A stretch of DNA of 22,674 nucleotides from Planctomycetota bacterium. Lineage in GTDB: Bacteria; Planctomycetota; Phycisphaerae; WQYP01. The notes under the pieces are model-generated. The model had not been told where the DNA came from. It worked only from the letters and a program-made list of their open reading frames with translations, and did no database searches. The stretch's first letter is position 1. Each line of letters starts with the position of its first letter. Location of the stretch: assembly GCA_021785155.1 (NCBI GenBank), contig JAJYGE010000558.1, positions 1-22,674 of the forward strand, read 5' to 3'. The translations under genes were made by a program, and so were the position numbers. This document shows, one piece after another, positions 8,282 to 20,281 of the stretch.

Positions 8282-10399
8282 TCATGCGTGAATAAGCAGA
8301 GGGATATCTTGCGGCAACTGATCCGCCACCGCGGTCAGTGTATCGCCATGCAATGCCCGCAACATGGTGCCGCGTCGGGATACGCCCATCAGCAGCGCGT
8401 TGACGGAATAAGTTGCGGCGAAATCCAATATCGTATAGGCCACATCGGGAGAAACCGCGTAAATAGGCACCAGTGGAACGCCATCCTTGTTACAGGCTTC
8501 CTGGGCCTTGCGGAAAGTGGCAATCGCCTCCGAGTCTTCTTCCAGCGTCGGGCCTTCGCTATCTGCGGCAAACGCCAGATTTAACTGACGCACAAAAATC
8601 ACAAACAGTATCGCCCCGGATTGCCTGGCGTATTGGGCGGCAAAATCCAAAAGTCGCGGCGACCCGCGCGTGGCTACCAGCACCTTGGGCATCGACATTT
8701 CCAGTTCCCGCGCGGGCGTGCCGAACGCGAGTTGCTCCGGCTTGGTTTCCGCAGCCTCGGCGGGTAGATGGGCGGCCTTTAACTGCGGCACCAAGCGCCG
8801 CAGTTGATTAACCGCTCCCCCCGCCAGAACCAAACAAATCCCCGTCGCCGCAAATAACCATCCCGCATAAACCGGGTGATGATGCAAAAACATAAATCCA
8901 AGTTTCAACATGGCCACAGCGATCACGACCGCCGACGCACAACTGCCGGCTAAAACGCGGGACCGCACTTTTAAGGTCAGCTCCGGATATTGCTTGGTAT
9001 AGAACCGGGCCAGCAAACCGCTGCCCAGCACACACAGCGCAAAGATAAGGGCTTCGTGTTTCTCGAGCGCCAGTGTCAGTTCAATGGCCCCCATTATTAA
9101 ACCCACCGCCGCCAGAAATAAGCGCTCCCAGCGTTGAAGTTGGAGTTCCCTGTTAAGTGCCGCACTGGAAAGATTGATGGTTATCGCCCCCACCACGCCG
9201 ATGGCATATAAATCTCCCAACGTGCTTAAATCATGAAAAATACTGAGAATCAGCACGGGTACAATAACCGCCGGGATCAGAGCCAGCCAAGGCACGCCGA
9301 ACATGTTCAGCCGGGACAAAAACCGCGGTAATTCATTATCACGTGACATCGTGTACTGAATACTCATCATGGCCCCGATGGCGGTATTGACCGCTGAAAT
9401 AAGAAGCAGACCGAAGACGATGCCGCAGATCCAGCCAAAAGGACGACCCACAAAATCACTGGCCATGACCCGCAAGACTTCATTCTGGATTTCGTTTTCA
9501 CGATCGTAATTCGTGTCCATTCTTTTGACTTGCCCCACCATTTGCGGGTGGATTTTCCAGTCCGGATGCCGAGCTTTGAACACATGAACTTCGTGATGAA
9601 GTACGACGGCGGGCGTGGTGAATGTCTCCCGGGGAAGCCTGGGATTCGGGCTTAATGCGCACATACCTATGGCCAATATGGCGTTTAATACAACCACTTC
9701 CACGAGCACGGGTAAAATGGTCTTTCGAGCGGTGGTCTTGACGGGGCGAACCATCACGCCGGTCATATTTGCCACCGCTTCCACGCCTGAAAGCGCCAAG
9801 ACAACATTAACCAGCGCAAACCATTGATCCCCCAGATTTCCGGTAAGCTGTCCATGCGTCATGATGCGGTGCCATCCAGTGGCCAGATGAGGCACGCTGA
9901 ACGCCGTAATTATCAGGGTCAGCACAAACGTGGCCAATGCCGCAATCAGCGCCAGTACGCCCACTTTCCGCAGGCCAAAATAATTAAGAATGCCGATGAG
10001 GATAATGGCTCCGATCCCGCACACAGGCACCAACGGGCCGTCATTGGGCACACCGATATATTGGATGCCGTCATACGCGGACATCGCGGCAGTGACAATA
10101 AAATCCGCGCACAGCAACAGCGCTCCAATGACCGCCAACTGCCGACTTAAATGTTTGGCCGAGGTATAAACGCCGCCGCCATCGGGAAAGCACCGACAAA
10201 TAATGGTGTAGGCCCAGCCCACCAGTGCCACCAGCACCCCCACCGCCAGCACATACCAGAAACTTTGATAAAGTGAATAAAAGAACGCCAAACCCAGCAC
10301 ATAGAACCGGCTCGTACCCCAATCACCATACAAGATGCCCGATGCGTGGTACCACTTCAGTTCCCGTGGACGCTCGTTATGTCGAACGGAATGATCCAT
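8282..10399 (-). CDS. APC-family amino-acid permease fused to a universal stress (UspA) domain
   Basis: Residues 1-560 form a transporter of about 12-14 helices with the APC-superfamily look: GVYTSAKHLSRQLAVIGALLLCADFIVTAAMSAYDG near 75-110, then WFALVNVVLALSGVEAVANMTGV near 190-215, where substrate and sodium or proton sites lie. A loop of about 60 polar residues (near 270-330, containing KARHPDWKIHPQMVGQVKRMDT) interrupts the core. Residues from about 575 form a cytosolic Usp domain beginning MPKVLVATRGSPRLLDFAAQYA and ending VNALLMGVSRRG with a glycine-rich nucleotide-binding-like turn, although the usual Gly-Ser/Thr is Gly-Asp here. Such fusions are thought to let nucleotide or stress state gate transport. 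The start at ATG 10399 has GGAG 4 bases upstream. The substrate is unknown. Confidence 0.85.
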   Translation of the reverse strand: MDHSVRHNERPRELKWYHASGILYGDWGTSRFYVLGLAFFYSLYQSFWYVLAVGVLVALVGWAYTIICRCFPDGGGVYTSAKHLSRQLAVIGALLLCADFIVTAAMSAYDGIQYIGVPNDGPLVPVCGIGAIILIGILNYFGLRKVGVLALIAALATFVLTLIITAFSVPHLATGWHRIMTHGQLTGNLGDQWFALVNVVLALSGVEAVANMTGVMVRPVKTTARKTILPVLVEVVVLNAILAIGMCALSPNPRLPRETFTTPAVVLHHEVHVFKARHPDWKIHPQMVGQVKRMDTNYDRENEIQNEVLRVMASDFVGRPFGWICGIVFGLLLISAVNTAIGAMMSIQYTMSRDNELPRFLSRLNMFGVPWLALIPAVIVPVLILSIFHDLSTLGDLYAIGVVGAITINLSSAALNRELQLQRWERLFLAAVGLIMGAIELTLALEKHEALIFALCVLGSGLLARFYTKQYPELTLKVRSRVLAGSCASAVVIAVAMLKLGFMFLHHHPVYAGWLFAATGICLVLAGGAVNQLRRLVPQLKAAHLPAEAAETKPEQLAFGTPARELEMSMPKVLVATRGSPRLLDFAAQYARQSGAILFVIFVRQLNLAFAADSEGPTLEEDSEAIATFRKAQEACNKDGVPLVPIYAVSPDVAYTILDFAATYSVNALLMGVSRRGTMLRALHGDTLTAVADQLPQDIPLLIHA

Positions 10400-13670: not shown

Positions 13671-14597
13671 ATGACGACAACAGCATCTTCAACCGTAAAA
13701 CCATCTGCTTCGCAAGACGCCGGAAAAGCGAAAACGCTTTATGAGCAGGCCATGAAATTGGCCCATTCAGGTCGCATTGAAGCGGCGGCTGAAAAACTTG
13801 AATCAGCCTATCAAGCCGATCCGGAAAATGAGGAAGTGGCATTCAAACTTGCCTATTACGCCGATCTGCTGGGAGATGATGAATTATCGCTGGCAATTTA
13901 TGAGACCATGGCCCAGCGGCAACCCACCCGTGAAGGAGTGTTGTTGAACCTTTCGGTGCTCTATGAAGATCTCGGATTTTACAATGATGCGGAAGAGTGT
14001 TTACACCGCTTATTATCGGTGAATCCCAACAGCGCGCATGGCCGCATGTATTATGAACATGTGGACAGTTCCATGTACATGGAAGTTCCGGACGACAATG
14101 ACAGGCGTATTTTGCCCCGCAACATGCTGTTGGAATTGCCCACCACTGATTTTGAACTCTCTGTTCGTGCCCGCAACTGCCTGAAGAAAATGAATATTCG
14201 CACTTTGGGCGATCTGGTGCGCACCAGCGAAGCGGAGCTTATCAGCTACAAAAACTTCGGGGAAAGCAGCCTGGATGAAATCCGGGAGATGCTCGCCAAA
14301 AAAGGCTTGCGCCTCGGACAGGCTGTGGATGAAGCCCGCGAACTGCAGCGGCAAGAGCTTATGAAGCAGGTAGCCGCAAAAGTCCCCGAAGAGGTGCTCA
14401 ATAAACTGGTGACGGAACTGGATTTTTCCGTTCGATCCACCAAGGCTCTGGAAAAGTTGAAGATAAAAACGGTCGGTGATCTGGCCAGTAGAACCGAAGC
14501 GGAACTTTTGGGGGTTCCAAACTTCGGCCAGACCAGTTTGGACGAAATAAAGCAGAAGCTCACAGAATTCAACCTGACATTGCGGCGCGTTGAGTAA
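13671..14597 (+). CDS. TPR protein with two RNA polymerase alpha C-terminal domains
   Basis: The 308-residue protein has TPR-like helices at about 20-120 (AKTLYEQAMKLAHSGRIEAA, then two more units), then two domains homologous to the RNA polymerase alpha C-terminal domain: one at 152-217 (TTDFELSVRARNCLKKMNIR and onward) and one at 244-305 (TELDFSVRSTKALEKLKIKT and onward). The DNA-contacting Arg of alphaCTD is kept in both (Arg166, Arg255); the neighbouring Asn is Asn169 in the first but Lys258 in the second. The alpha N-terminal assembly domain is absent, so it is not the polymerase subunit. A charged helix (218-243) links the domains. It probably binds A+T-rich DNA, sigma or activators while the TPR recruits a partner. 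A near-consensus promoter lies upstream; the nearest AGAGGA is rather far from the ATG. Confidence 0.88.
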   Translation: MTTTASSTVKPSASQDAGKAKTLYEQAMKLAHSGRIEAAAEKLESAYQADPENEEVAFKLAYYADLLGDDELSLAIYETMAQRQPTREGVLLNLSVLYEDLGFYNDAEECLHRLLSVNPNSAHGRMYYEHVDSSMYMEVPDDNDRRILPRNMLLELPTTDFELSVRARNCLKKMNIRTLGDLVRTSEAELISYKNFGESSLDEIREMLAKKGLRLGQAVDEARELQRQELMKQVAAKVPEEVLNKLVTELDFSVRSTKALEKLKIKTVGDLASRTEAELLGVPNFGQTSLDEIKQKLTEFNLTLRRVE

Positions 14598-14640
14598 ATA
14601 ACACGAATAAAAAAACATGAGATCATGGAGGATCCGCGTC

Positions 14641-15873
14641 ATGCCACTACGTCCGTTTGTGACAGCGATTCTGTCCGTCACGTTGGCCGCGGCGGCATTC
14701 GTGACATCAGGATGCCAGAGTGCCAACTCCAATGTATCGGTTGGTAATATTCCCGCGCCGCCGGGCATAGGTTCAATTTCAGAAGCTCCCCCATTGGTGG
14801 CCTCCACCAGCAGTGCACCGGGCTATCCGGCAGTACCGGCGATTTTGCCTAAACCGGAAATTCTCGGCCCCGTGTATCCCGGCATCATTCCTTTGCCATC
14901 CCGGATGCGCGAACCATGGATTCGCGTACGCATTACGCAGGAATCCTCCACGCCACCATACATTAATCCGAATCTTTATCGCGGCACTGTAACCATTGCC
15001 CATTTGCCGGATGGCCGATATGCGGCCATTAACAGCCTGCCGATTGAAAGTTATCTGGCAGGTGTGTTATCACGGGAATTATACGGCGATTGGCTGCCGG
15101 CCACGTACCGCGCACAGGCCATCGCCGCGCGCACATACGCCCTGTATCAAATTGAAACATTTGGACGCACCCATGCCTGGGATGTCACAGGCGGCCAGAA
15201 TTCGCAAGTATACGGCGGAAAAAACGCTGAAACGCCCCGGGCGTGGAATGCGGTGCGGGCCACCACCGGCGACGTGATGGAAACGCGCACCCCGCAGAAC
15301 ACCGGCTTGTTTTGCGCATTTTATTCCGCGTGCAATGGCGGTGCATCGCAAAGTGCCGCGGACGCATGGGGAGATCCTTCCGTGCCTCCACTGGTAAACC
15401 GTGTATTTGGCCCTCTAGACGCCAATTGCCCTAAATTTACCTGGCCCACCATGACCTTAAGTCTAGCACAGGTAACACAGGCGGTAACCTGGTGGGGAGA
15501 GCAAAACAAGCTGCCTTATCTGGCGGAACTGGGCCCCATCGTGTCTGTGCGCATTACACAGCGAAATCCCGTCACCCGCCGCCCCATGATTATTACCCTC
15601 ACGGATGCCGCCGGTCATATCGGAAAAATGAGGGCCGAGGAATTCCGTCTCGCGCTGGCTTTGGACCCCATGCGAAACATTCCCGCCCCACCAAGCAGCT
15701 TTTTTAAAATACAAAACGACGGTAATAATATCGAACTGGTTGATGGCCATGGATTTGGCCATGGCATCGGTCTATCCCAATGGGGTGCACAAAGCCTGGC
15801 CCAACGCGGCTGGCGGGCGGAATCCATCCTTAGTATTTATTATCCCCGCTCCTGGATTCATAAGGAATGGTGA
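14641..15873 (+). CDS. SpoIID/LytB-family lytic transglycosylase-like lipoprotein
   Basis: A 410-residue lipoprotein: signal MPLRPFVTAILSVTLAAAAF with lipobox ending at Cys25, then a Pro/Ser/Ala-rich linker to about 90. The SpoIID domain follows: SYLAGVLSRELYGDW (catalytic-type Glu146), YRAQAIAARTYAL (157-169), FYSACNGG (228-234, the YxATxGG position) and HGFGHGIGLSQWGAQ (370-384, metal-binding His region). SpoIID cleaves denuded peptidoglycan in sporulating Firmicutes; homologues in non-sporulating bacteria are thought to remodel the wall at division. The start is ATG 14641, because GGAGG lies 10 bases before it; an upstream ATG at 14617 would put that site inside the gene. It follows the twin-alphaCTD gene by 43 bases, so the two are likely cotranscribed. 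Confidence 0.88.
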   Translation: MPLRPFVTAILSVTLAAAAFVTSGCQSANSNVSVGNIPAPPGIGSISEAPPLVASTSSAPGYPAVPAILPKPEILGPVYPGIIPLPSRMREPWIRVRITQESSTPPYINPNLYRGTVTIAHLPDGRYAAINSLPIESYLAGVLSRELYGDWLPATYRAQAIAARTYALYQIETFGRTHAWDVTGGQNSQVYGGKNAETPRAWNAVRATTGDVMETRTPQNTGLFCAFYSACNGGASQSAADAWGDPSVPPLVNRVFGPLDANCPKFTWPTMTLSLAQVTQAVTWWGEQNKLPYLAELGPIVSVRITQRNPVTRRPMIITLTDAAGHIGKMRAEEFRLALALDPMRNIPAPPSSFFKIQNDGNNIELVDGHGFGHGIGLSQWGAQSLAQRGWRAESILSIYYPRSWIHKEW

Positions 15874-17278: not shown

Positions 17279-19678
17279 CTATCCCTTGGCGGGAGCGGTG
17301 GTCGGCTTTTTTACGGGTCCCAATGCGGCTTGCGCGGCGAGTTCCGCTGCCCAGGCGGAAGCGAGTTTATCTCTATCCGCATGGGCTAAAGCTGACAGCC
17401 GCTTTGCCGCCGCCGCCAGCGCCTCGGCCTGGTTGGATTTTTCAGCCACTGCCAGAACTCGCCAATAGGCTTCCATGCGCACCACGGTATGAGCAGAATC
17501 ACAGGCGGCATCCAAGGCTCTGGACAGATTCTTTGGAGCACCCGTCAGCGGTGCCCAGCGCGTCAACCAAGCCTGTGCATAATAATCATCAGGCGTATCC
17601 ATAACATTTAACAGGGCGGTAGTGATTTTTTTTCTTAGAGCTGCCACAGATTTAGCCTGATCGGCGGCCGAGGCACCGGGGTGGGCGGAACTTTCAATCC
17701 CGGATAGTTGGGGCAGACTGCGGGCCAGCACGCCAGCGGTCAGCATCTGCTGCCGCGCGGGAACGGTTGTCAGACCATGGGCTAAATTGGCCAGCGCCTG
17801 TGGATCGCCGGCACAAAAGCCATCAACATTAAAATAACCCGCATTCATTTCCTGGCCACCCAGGCCGGGAACGATTAAACCCTGTATGGCCAGAGGATTG
17901 GTAATGACTTCGATTTGCCCACCGAGGATTGAAATCGGATGGCGCAGAATCAGTTTCCGCAGTGCCCCCTGATCCACACGGTAGCGCACCGTAATGCCGC
18001 CCTGCGGTTCCAACCGCAGTACCGTCGGGTTGCTATCCACGGCATATACACCCAGCGCGGAATTATTGACCCCCTGAATACTTCCGGCCAGCGCGATATT
18101 CGTGGAAATAGCCGCATTTTGACCGACGGCAAGGGTATACGGAGAGGTATTGTAATAGTGTACGCGGATATACATCGGATCGCCGGTCGTTATAAAGCGA
18201 TTGGACCAGTCAGTGGTTACCAGGATAATCTTGCCGGGGTGGTCCGCCGCGTCCAGCATCAGCTTGGGATAACCGGCAACGGTCGCGCTGATGTCCTGAC
18301 TGGAAGCAGGCTTCGCAAGTGTAACGCCGAGAGCGGCTGCGGCCTGGGTTACATCCAGCGCCGGCAACGGCGGCAACGGTGCATCCCAGAGCCGCTGGAG
18401 AATTTTTGCAGCCTTTGCGGTCTGATGCGCGTCAGCCAAGATGCGCTCGATGCCCAACTGCGCATAGGGATCATCGCCCGCCATATTCAGATGCGTTAAT
18501 GCGGCGGCGCTAAAGCCTTGCCGCAATAATTGCCAGCCGCGCAGGCGGTCATATTCCGGCGCATCGGCGGGCAGTCTTTTTTTCAGCTCCGCCACCTGAT
18601 GGGCGATATCTTTCGGAAGCGTTGGACTATAAAAAAGGTCCAGCCACAATACGTCGGCCTGGAGCGAGGGATTCTTCGGATCGGTTTTCATCGCGGCAGC
18701 CAGACGATTATGGATACGTGCCAGCAAAGCTCTGGCTGTCGGTCCGGAGACAAACTTTCCGTGCGTGCGATACGTCAGCGCCATCATTAACACCGGCGTG
18801 GAGGGGTGCTTTAATCCCAGCAATTCTCCCATGTAGGCCTGATATTCATCATTTTGTCCGGAAATCGCCCAATAATCCGCAAGATTCGCCGCCAGCTCGG
18901 GCGAAATGCTTATGCGACGCTGCTGATATTGACGGATGGCCGCATTCGCCCATGCCGCGGCCTGCCGGTAGTCATGGGCATCGGCCAGAATTTCCGAAAC
19001 TGCGGAAAGTGCATCAGGTTGATAGGGGTCCGCCCGCAGCGCATGTAACAACGCATAAAGCCGCTGCGTCACCGGTGCATTTTCCGCAGCCAGTGTTCGG
19101 GCCAGGGACTGCCAGGCGGCTAAATTGGCGGCATTGAGTCGAACGGCCCGAATGTACATATCTGCAGCGGCGGCTTTGCGCCCCTGGGCCTCAAGTAACC
19201 CACCGATGCGCTGCGCCATGGCACTGCGAACCTGATCATTAAAGGTTTTATGTATCAAAACCGTGCGATATACGGATATGCGGCCAAGCACGGTTTGCCG
19301 TACTGCTGCAATCGCATCGAAAAGCTGAACCTGAGCCGTAAGATCATCGGGTTTCAGATTTACCAATTCTTGAAGCACCTTGGCCCGCAGCGCATCATCA
19401 CCATTGGTTTGTGCGGCTTCGGCCAACAATCGCAAGACGGTCGCGGATTGCCCATCAATTTGCCGTGCCGCCGCCAGTAAGGTCAGAGCCTGTCTCGCCG
19501 CTATATTTGCGGGCAAATTGAGATCACGGCTGGCCGTGCGAGCATCATCGACGAGTTGGGCCGCCAACAGATGCTGCGCCGATCCCCTTCCTTGTGCGTG
19601 AACCATGGCAGGCAGGCTGGCGGGCGAACAAGCTGCCAGCATCAGGATTATTACTCTTCTCCGGAGGTGGTAAATCAT
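17279..19678 (-). CDS. Large exported TPR-repeat protein, unknown function
   Basis: A 799-residue protein starting MIYHLRRRVIILMLAAC. The N-terminus is a signal: LAAC is a lipobox (Cys17), though cleavage after VHA a little later is also possible. Residues about 30-430 are Ala-rich tandem helical hairpins of TPR type (SATVLRLLAEAAQTNGDDAL, LAAWQSLARTLAAENAPVTQ, YRQAAAWANAAIRQYQQRRI). About 480-610 is beta-rich (IILVTTDWSNRFITTGDPMY and onward) like an Ig or beta-sandwich domain, and 640-785 is helical, HEAT-like, with a Lys/Pro/Ala tail. It is probably periplasmic or membrane-anchored scaffolding. Start ATG 19678 has AAAGGG 8 bases upstream; a TTG just before it is less likely. No family is recognised. 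It stands alone, with non-coding stretches on both sides. Confidence 0.75.
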   Translation of the reverse strand: MIYHLRRRVIILMLAACSPASLPAMVHAQGRGSAQHLLAAQLVDDARTASRDLNLPANIAARQALTLLAAARQIDGQSATVLRLLAEAAQTNGDDALRAKVLQELVNLKPDDLTAQVQLFDAIAAVRQTVLGRISVYRTVLIHKTFNDQVRSAMAQRIGGLLEAQGRKAAAADMYIRAVRLNAANLAAWQSLARTLAAENAPVTQRLYALLHALRADPYQPDALSAVSEILADAHDYRQAAAWANAAIRQYQQRRISISPELAANLADYWAISGQNDEYQAYMGELLGLKHPSTPVLMMALTYRTHGKFVSGPTARALLARIHNRLAAAMKTDPKNPSLQADVLWLDLFYSPTLPKDIAHQVAELKKRLPADAPEYDRLRGWQLLRQGFSAAALTHLNMAGDDPYAQLGIERILADAHQTAKAAKILQRLWDAPLPPLPALDVTQAAAALGVTLAKPASSQDISATVAGYPKLMLDAADHPGKIILVTTDWSNRFITTGDPMYIRVHYYNTSPYTLAVGQNAAISTNIALAGSIQGVNNSALGVYAVDSNPTVLRLEPQGGITVRYRVDQGALRKLILRHPISILGGQIEVITNPLAIQGLIVPGLGGQEMNAGYFNVDGFCAGDPQALANLAHGLTTVPARQQMLTAGVLARSLPQLSGIESSAHPGASAADQAKSVAALRKKITTALLNVMDTPDDYYAQAWLTRWAPLTGAPKNLSRALDAACDSAHTVVRMEAYWRVLAVAEKSNQAEALAAAAKRLSALAHADRDKLASAWAAELAAQAALGPVKKPTTAPAKG

Positions 19679-20281
19679 CAATGCACACCCTTTTTAACCG
19701 CTTTATATTTCCGTCATCATCCCCGGACGCGTGCGCTTGAGTATGGCGCACAGGCAGTCAATTTTGGCCCTTCAGCGCTTCCAGACCGTGACGGAAGTCC
19801 ATGCGTTATATCGGTCAATTTGTCCAAGGTCAATCCTGCAAGCCCTTATCACCAGAATTTTCACCCGTCGGTACACCATGATTACCCTTTCCGAGCATCG
19901 GCATCAGGTCCAATAACATGGTTTAGAGTCCCATTGCAGACGTTTCCCGTGTCTGGAGAGTTATACTCCGCCCGCCATCCTATGGGACGAGTTGCTTCTG
20001 CGGCCCAGTGTACCGCAGGCACCTTGCGTGCATCGGCATGGGATACCAGCAGGCCGGGTTGCGGCATCTTTGGGCGTTAGGGGTGCTCTTCCCACCTTCG
20101 GAAAAATGCGATTACTTACCACTTTCTCAACACCGACGACTGCCGCGTAAAACGCGCGGTGCAAGCACACGCGGCTAAAAGGGGATGGGGTGTCCCGGTA
20201 CGCTGGTTCGGATGTATTGCCACACTGCGGCAACCTGCAGTCAGCTTGGCCGTTATCACCCGAATGGCAAGCCGCGAGAAT

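Follow-up and report, generated by a model that had tools for sequence, protein, structure and literature searches.

Tetratricopeptide repeats joined to tandem RNA polymerase alpha C-terminal domains in a core protein of the Planctomycetota

Planctomycetota encode, as a core gene, a protein that joins tetratricopeptide repeats (TPRs) to two tandem copies of the C-terminal domain of the RNA polymerase alpha subunit (alphaCTD), an architecture that is phylum-wide and not rare. We give about even weight to the reading that this TPR-alphaCTD protein serves as a stand-alone DNA-binding, transcription-linked adaptor, core to the Planctomycetota. The protein was analyzed in a window of 22,674 nucleotides, i.e., the whole stretch of DNA under study, with the following features:

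13671..14597, + strand: TPR-alphaCTD-alphaCTD protein (P0001), open reading frame of 308 aa with ATG start (Pfam, AF2)
13719..14075, + strand: three TPR hairpins and capping helix, residues 17-135
14130..14324, + strand: first alphaCTD (D1), residues ~154-218 (Pfam, residue alignment, solved-chain match, Foldseek)
14319..14375, + strand: helical linker between D1 and D2, residues 217-235 (AF2 secondary structure)
14379..14588, + strand: second alphaCTD (D2), residues ~237-306 (residue alignment, separate AF2 model)
14617..15873, + strand: downstream SpoIID/LytB-domain gene (TIGR02669, 154.7 bits against a cut-off of 83.3)

The Pfam family RNA_pol_A_CTD (PF03118) matches two stretches of the 308-aa protein (E 1.1e-42; 144 bits, with the cut-off at 23.8), and in relatives each of both domains lies above the cut-off separately. 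TPR_19, TPR_2 and TPR_14 all exceed their cut-offs, with a TPR fold present in the AF2 model, and an alpha N-terminal (assembly) family is absent from the 20 Pfam families found at E ≤ 0.1. This confirms the preliminary description of the protein as TPRs followed by two tandem alphaCTDs with no assembly domain. Unlike RpoA, it carries TPRs in place of the alpha N-terminal domain (NTD) and two alphaCTD copies per chain; rpoA equivalog models stay far under cut-off (e.g., 146.7 of 302 bits). We class the TPR-alphaCTD protein as an alphaCTD-bearing protein and not as RpoA. Among solved structures, the closest sequences are those of RNA polymerase alpha subunits (E 7.8e-14), with residues 142-221 giving the best match. 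Three further models, BREX PglW (NF033442, 32.8 of 990 bits), a beta' model (NF011498, 28.6 of 1437 bits) and a 95-aa hypothetical protein (NF005841, 41 of 115 bits), are matched by the alphaCTD part and are related by domain only. TPR families and RNA_pol_A_CTD occur together in the 120 matches listed (best 120 of 7705, the latter being those with E ≤ 1e-3 among 7999 scored candidates), at identities to the window protein from 83% down to ~42%; the joining of TPRs and alphaCTDs is therefore not due to chance. The spacing between the starts of D1 and D2 is 83-99 residues in 112/115 family proteins.

The AF2 model of the full protein, computed from a 103-row alignment (A1, comprising 22 protein ids and 81 of 102 locus stretches), reaches a mean pLDDT of 89.3 and a pTM of 0.49, and the mutual orientation of the domains is therefore not fixed by the model. 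Its layout consists of three TPR hairpins (helices at 17-117), a cap helix (122-135), D1, a 19-residue helix (217-235) and D2. Foldseek superposes the full model on the alphaCTD of Caulobacter in complex with AT-rich DNA (9zum) at 0.6-0.7 Å over 64 columns with 48-50% identity; Foldseek gives no aligned range, and we infer that this match belongs to D1, because the 32 identities in the sequence alignment of D1 fit 50% of 64. D2, modelled separately (AF2 pLDDT 78.8), matches 9zum_E at 0.8 Å (48% identity) and 1lb2_E at 1.1 Å, and the best 50 of its 215 PDB matches are all RNA polymerase alpha or complexes containing alpha, with large rmsd values in some of the Foldseek rows for entire polymerase chains. 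The VIA-align matches listed are TPR domains and uninformative on D1 and D2. The likeness to the RpoA CTD thus extends to a fold within 0.6-1.1 Å of DNA-bound alphaCTDs at 43-50% identity, and the profile, the sequence matches to solved chains and the fold all identify both domains specifically as alphaCTDs. A generic helix-hairpin-helix protein, the outcome that would have spoken against the preliminary description, was not found: HHH_5 scores 25.9 against a cut-off of 27, PF03118 is stronger by 118 bits, D2's 50 listed PDB matches (of 215) are polymerase alpha or complexes that include it, and the models match the DNA-bound Caulobacter alphaCTD at 0.6-0.8 Å.

Distribution was assessed in 244 Planctomycetota genomes, an even draw from the phylum with a requested completeness of at least 90%. 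The family profile matches 241/244 genomes at E ≤ 1e-64, in line with the earlier suggestion that similar proteins occur in planctomycetes. Tracking of the Planctomycetota, named there as a point to check, holds as a near-universal presence inside the phylum. The remaining three (G031, G091 and G157) yield values of only ~1e-22; G091 has D1-D2 sequence at a contig end, and a search found no D1-D2 sequence in G031 and G157. PF03118 itself is found in 244/244 genomes, with exactly three domains in 202, fewer in 9 and more in 33 (counted by hand). In detail, 8/8 relatives' genomes have one CTD in rpoA and two in the TPR protein, 2/8 with one extra, weaker match, and all eight encode a separate, complete rpoA (PF01000 and PF01193, 80-111 bits each). 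A split RpoA or a substitute for a lost alphaCTD is therefore rejected, as rpoA is complete in 8/8 relatives and the 37 planctomycete rpoA CTDs examined are normal. Three genomes (G023, G106 and G034) carry, besides the TPR-alphaCTD family, large frames of 822, 734 and 701 aa with 3, 3 and 2 tandem alphaCTD matches, respectively (G023:C19:17212-17892, G106:C151:1396-2082, G034:C215:8340-8804).

A genome scan across all phyla for close relatives returned 238 loci, and the best 80 comprise 78 titled planctomycetes, one 'bacterium' and one 'Vicinamibacteraceae'. The scan picks up close relatives alone, and its result hints that the family might be confined to Planctomycetota. One family protein stems from a record named Laminaria digitata and is probably from an associated bacterium. 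Cultured carriers, known by their database names, include Blastopirellula, Bremerella cremea and Bremerella alba, whose members are ~440 aa long with more TPRs, compared with 308 aa and three TPRs in the window form. PF26169 is precomputed for most Phycisphaerae-type members listed and for none of the Pirellula-type members listed.

Domain calls, including those of D2 losses, neighbors and the 19-genome comparison below, relied on a three-row domain profile. D2 is missing in five genomes (G074, G133, G153, G169 and G211), which retain the TPRs, D1 and a short tail; the D1-only proteins (L279, L280, L282, L284 and L274) end 10-22 residues past the D1 match. As these five genomes keep TPR and D1 without D2, TPR plus D1 represents the irreducible core of the protein.

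A mobile-element origin was also considered and rejected. Matches occur in 75 plasmid and 15 phage records, none of which covers 80% of the query at one place; 14 of the best 15 of the 75 plasmid matches fall inside residues 148-305 and the 15 phage matches inside 144-306. One plasmid (H1, Yoonia sp. BS5-3, 16.6-kb) matches residues 84-304 in two pieces with no annotated gene. Streptomyces accounts for 21/75 plasmid records with a match, and Streptomyces and Tsukamurella plasmids with alphaCTD sequence (H9-H15) are annotated as DNA-directed RNA polymerase subunit alpha in 5/7 cases.

Selective constraint was compared in the 19 genomes in which both family and rpoA loci were found, six of which are close relatives of others. 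D1 has the highest mean pairwise identity at 71.2%, followed by the rpoA CTD (63.0%), the rpoA NTD (57.3%), D2 (54.1%) and the TPR part (38.4%), and the identity of D1 exceeds that of the rpoA CTD in 153/171 genome pairs. The order is the same in a 13-genome subset (69.2, 60.7, 54.7, 49.2 and 36.9%, respectively). D1 is the most constrained part of the protein, held more tightly than the CTD of the polymerase itself. A tree of 148 rows, resting on 74 columns and with some long D2 branches, resolves D1, D2 and the rpoA CTD as three groups (support 99/94, 96/90 and 97/96); alignment A2 contains 100 of 110 locus stretches. Since the three form separate groups, the split between them is old and the domains have not been homogenized.

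Residues were counted in 168 distinct proteins (C-terminal parts) from 176 overlapping loci, with D2 present in 167. Relative to E. coli alpha, D1 of the window protein aligns as R166=R265, N169=N268, N195=N294, E198=K297 and E203=E302, and D2 as R255=R265, K258=N268, N284=N294, E292=E302 and R305=G315. Arg166 and Arg255, previously proposed to be the DNA-contacting arginine, hence both align with R265, and Asn169 and Lys258, singled out as a difference between the domains, both align with N268. Across the family, the R265 equivalent is arginine in 168/168 D1 and 166/167 D2, and the N294 equivalent is asparagine in 168/168 and 162/167; G296 (168/168 and 162/167), S299 (164/168 and 161/167) and E302 (168/168 and 167/167) equivalents are likewise kept. 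At the rrnB P1 UP element, R265 and N294 from both alphaCTDs enter the minor groove (PMC7822876), and R265, N294 and K298 are named for the alphaCTD elsewhere (PMC5101437). Outside this shared set the two domains differ. D1 has N268 in 164/168 and C269 in 161/168, whereas in D2 position 268 is K in 101/167 and R in 54/167, and position 315 is R in 129/167 and K in 22/167. A division of roles, suggested in the preliminary description, fits with a nearly frozen D1 and a D2 that carries these basic residues, changes more rapidly and is absent from five genomes.

Other positions set the domains apart from the polymerase CTD. In E. coli, K291 and K298 form salt bridges with DNA phosphates (PMC7822876). 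The window protein has no lysine at these positions, either in D1 (S192/S199) or in D2 (G281/T288). All 115 D1 compared carry S, A or G at position 291, against K291 in 21/37 planctomycete rpoA; position 298 is T in 100/115, and the loss of this lysine is not particular to D1, because planctomycete rpoA has T298 in 37/37. Position 297 of D1 is E or D in 168/168, whereas the rpoA CTD has K in 34/37 planctomycete rpoA; the acid at 297 is special to D1. Thus, unlike the E. coli RpoA CTD, D1 is without K291 and K298 and acidic at 297. Summed over DNA-facing positions of our choice, the charge is +1 for D1 and 0 for D2 of the window protein, and the family means over the same positions are +2.3 for D1, +2.1 for D2 and +3.1 for rpoA. 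We read D1 and D2 as probable minor-groove readers with a weakened backbone grip, possibly aided by the tandem arrangement or by a partner, or else as domains turned partly to protein contact.

In the adaptor reading, D1, and D2 where present, would reach with the invariant arginine and asparagine into narrow minor grooves of AT-rich DNA, like the alphaCTD of polymerase, and the tandem D1-D2 would suit two adjoining grooves, comparable to the two alphaCTDs of a single polymerase. D1 is acidic (D/E) at position 259 in 167/168 proteins and at 261 in 166/168, a pair that we take to be the contact of the E. coli alphaCTD to sigma region 4; because it is kept, D1 could sit beside sigma at promoters. 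The TPRs would hold a partner protein, which would be brought to promoters or kept off them. Architecture, fold, residue conservation, distribution within the phylum and neighborhood are direct observations; DNA binding by D1 and D2 is predicted, and the location at promoters, the sigma contact and the TPR partner are suggested with less assurance than DNA binding. The intact minor-groove set, i.e., the R265, N294, G296, S299 and E302 equivalents, favors the DNA-binding adaptor, as do the specific alphaCTD identity of both domains, the kept acidic pair, the strong constraint on D1, the near-universal occurrence alongside rpoA and the old split of the three domain groups. Plain UP-element binding by D1 is opposed by the absence of K291 and K298 and by the invariant acid at 297. 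Competition for activators and global regulation, also raised in the preliminary description, are conjectural. Against the adaptor reading, in addition to the missing lysines and the acid at 297, the chosen DNA-facing positions are less positive than in rpoA, the neighboring genes are housekeeping and not regulatory, the pTM of 0.49 leaves the two-groove geometry unsupported by the model, and five genomes manage without D2.

The same residues could be read in the opposite direction, with D1 largely off DNA and acting as a decoy or anti-activator whose targets would be sigma region 4, activators or the true alphaCTD, under regulation by the TPRs. This would agree with the acid at 297 and the missing lysines 291 and 298, with the nearly invariant acidic pair 259/261, with the residues that separate D1 from rpoA (K272, M273, Y292, K310 and R313, each at 88-97%), and with conservation of D1 above the true CTD, as expected of a frozen protein interface. 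However, pure protein contact would not need R265 and N294, which never vary in D1 and seldom do in D2, and the 287 determinant, presumably the CAP contact of the alphaCTD, is not retained as such, with R317 lost. We consider the decoy a good deal less probable than the adaptor, yet the strongest of its competitors.

The gene neighborhood was analyzed at 176 loci, 80 from a protein scan (L001-L080, with record titles that mostly read Phycisphaerae or Planctomycetota) and 96 fetched by genome handle; seven pairs are common to L001-L080 and the handle loci, so that the sets do not represent distinct lineages. Four of 180 loci had been dropped for lack of a family protein (L139, L162, L165 and L169, with single-CTD frames that are probably rpoA), and L161, where the contig ends within the frame, was left out of one locus analysis. 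The same-strand gene directly after the family gene is spoIID in 75/176 loci, ruvA in 49, tgt in 8 and something else in 44; one of spoIID, ruvA or tgt is therefore directly downstream in 132/176. As 100/180 loci were hand-picked (the first 40 mostly by a long open frame), the ratio ruvA:spoIID:tgt is no estimate for the phylum. spoIID is next in 60/80 of L001-L080 and in 15/96 loci fetched by genome handle; all cases with ruvA (49) or tgt (8) next lie within the latter 96.

Four loci (L150, L166, L171 and L172) keep ruvA, spoIID, tgt and yajC in order. In L166 and L172 the order is TPR-alphaCTD, ruvA, ruvB, queH, spoIID, tgt and yajC, with secD last in L166, where the eight genes from TPR-alphaCTD to secD lie on one strand (L166:2-8001) and the seven downstream genes were confirmed by Pfam. 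The TPR-alphaCTD gene heads an old cluster, ruvA-ruvB-queH-spoIID-tgt-yajC-secD, and the pair TPR-alphaCTD and spoIID of the window is best read as a remnant of it. In the window, 19 bp separate the TPR-alphaCTD gene from the ATG used for the SpoIID/LytB gene, another ATG following GGAGG at 14641 (by eye), and the two genes are probably co-transcribed.

This arrangement bears on two further explanations. A role in chromosome maintenance or repair, in which the domains would clamp DNA for a partner in recombination or replication and not serve transcription, could account for ruvA as next gene in 49/96 handle loci, followed by ruvB in L166 and L172, and for priA directly 3' of the TPR-alphaCTD gene in L017 (8968-11337, Pfam) and, judged by the letters, in L015, L016, L020, L206 and L207, of which L206 and L207 repeat L017 and L020. 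However, ruvA stands without a following ruvB in L151 and L155, other loci have spoIID or tgt adjoining instead, and the cluster also has queH, spoIID, tgt, yajC and secD, so the adjacency reflects an old, mixed housekeeping cluster; moreover, the solved structures matched are polymerase alphaCTDs. We regard a maintenance function as unlikely, somewhat more so than the decoy. A cell-envelope regulator dedicated to the downstream SpoIID/LytB gene in Phycisphaerae would be in keeping with spoIID as immediate same-strand neighbor in most of L001-L080 and in some handle loci, but the family is near-universal in the phylum and spoIID is not adjacent in 101/176 loci; the idea is further weakened because the full cluster explains the adjacency, and it is very improbable. 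The adjacency marks an old gene amid housekeeping genes and does not tell its function.

Other genes of the window were inspected as well. pabB lies upstream, and no pabB match was found in L001-L080 within the locus sequence available, which rules it out as a conserved upstream partner. Positions 8282-10399 (- strand) encode a 705-aa chain with AA_permease_2 and a C-terminal universal stress protein domain (Pfam), and 17279-19681 (- strand) an 800-aa protein whose N-terminus looks signal-like by eye and whose Pfam matches are all weak, DUF7017 being below cut-off.

Databases already name the TPR-alphaCTD protein from its domain, as 'DNA-directed RNA polymerase subunit alpha C-terminal domain-containing protein', 'RNA polymerase subunit alpha domain protein' or 'tetratricopeptide repeat protein'. 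Among the papers listed in a literature search, judged by title or abstract opening, none deals with the protein or its function. Within that scope, five findings are new: the gene is near-universal in the phylum, D1 is more constrained than polymerase alpha, position 297 of D1 is invariably acidic, D2 has been lost in some genomes, and the gene belongs to an ancestral cluster. The adaptor reading can be extended to a bolder proposal, which we put forward tentatively and hold to be rather doubtful: Planctomycetota would own a detachable, trans-acting alphaCTD pair as a core transcription factor that takes or shares the UP element and the sigma-proximal site, which the alphaCTD occupies in other bacteria, its TPRs plugging partners into polymerase, so that promoter regulation throughout the phylum would run partly via a second alphaCTD outside RNA polymerase.

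The protein carries a domain that defines promoter contact by bacterial RNA polymerase, was copied out of polymerase early in the history of the phylum, was fused to protein-binding repeats and is now under tighter selection than the copy in polymerase itself. If it acts at promoters, the textbook logic of UP element and activator would need a second player across the Planctomycetota. Owing to the near-universal distribution, the question can be tested in cultured genetic models; transposon essentiality has been reported for Planctopirus limnophila (PMC10632474). The acid at position 297 of D1 and the natural losses of D2 would provide ready variants for comparison.
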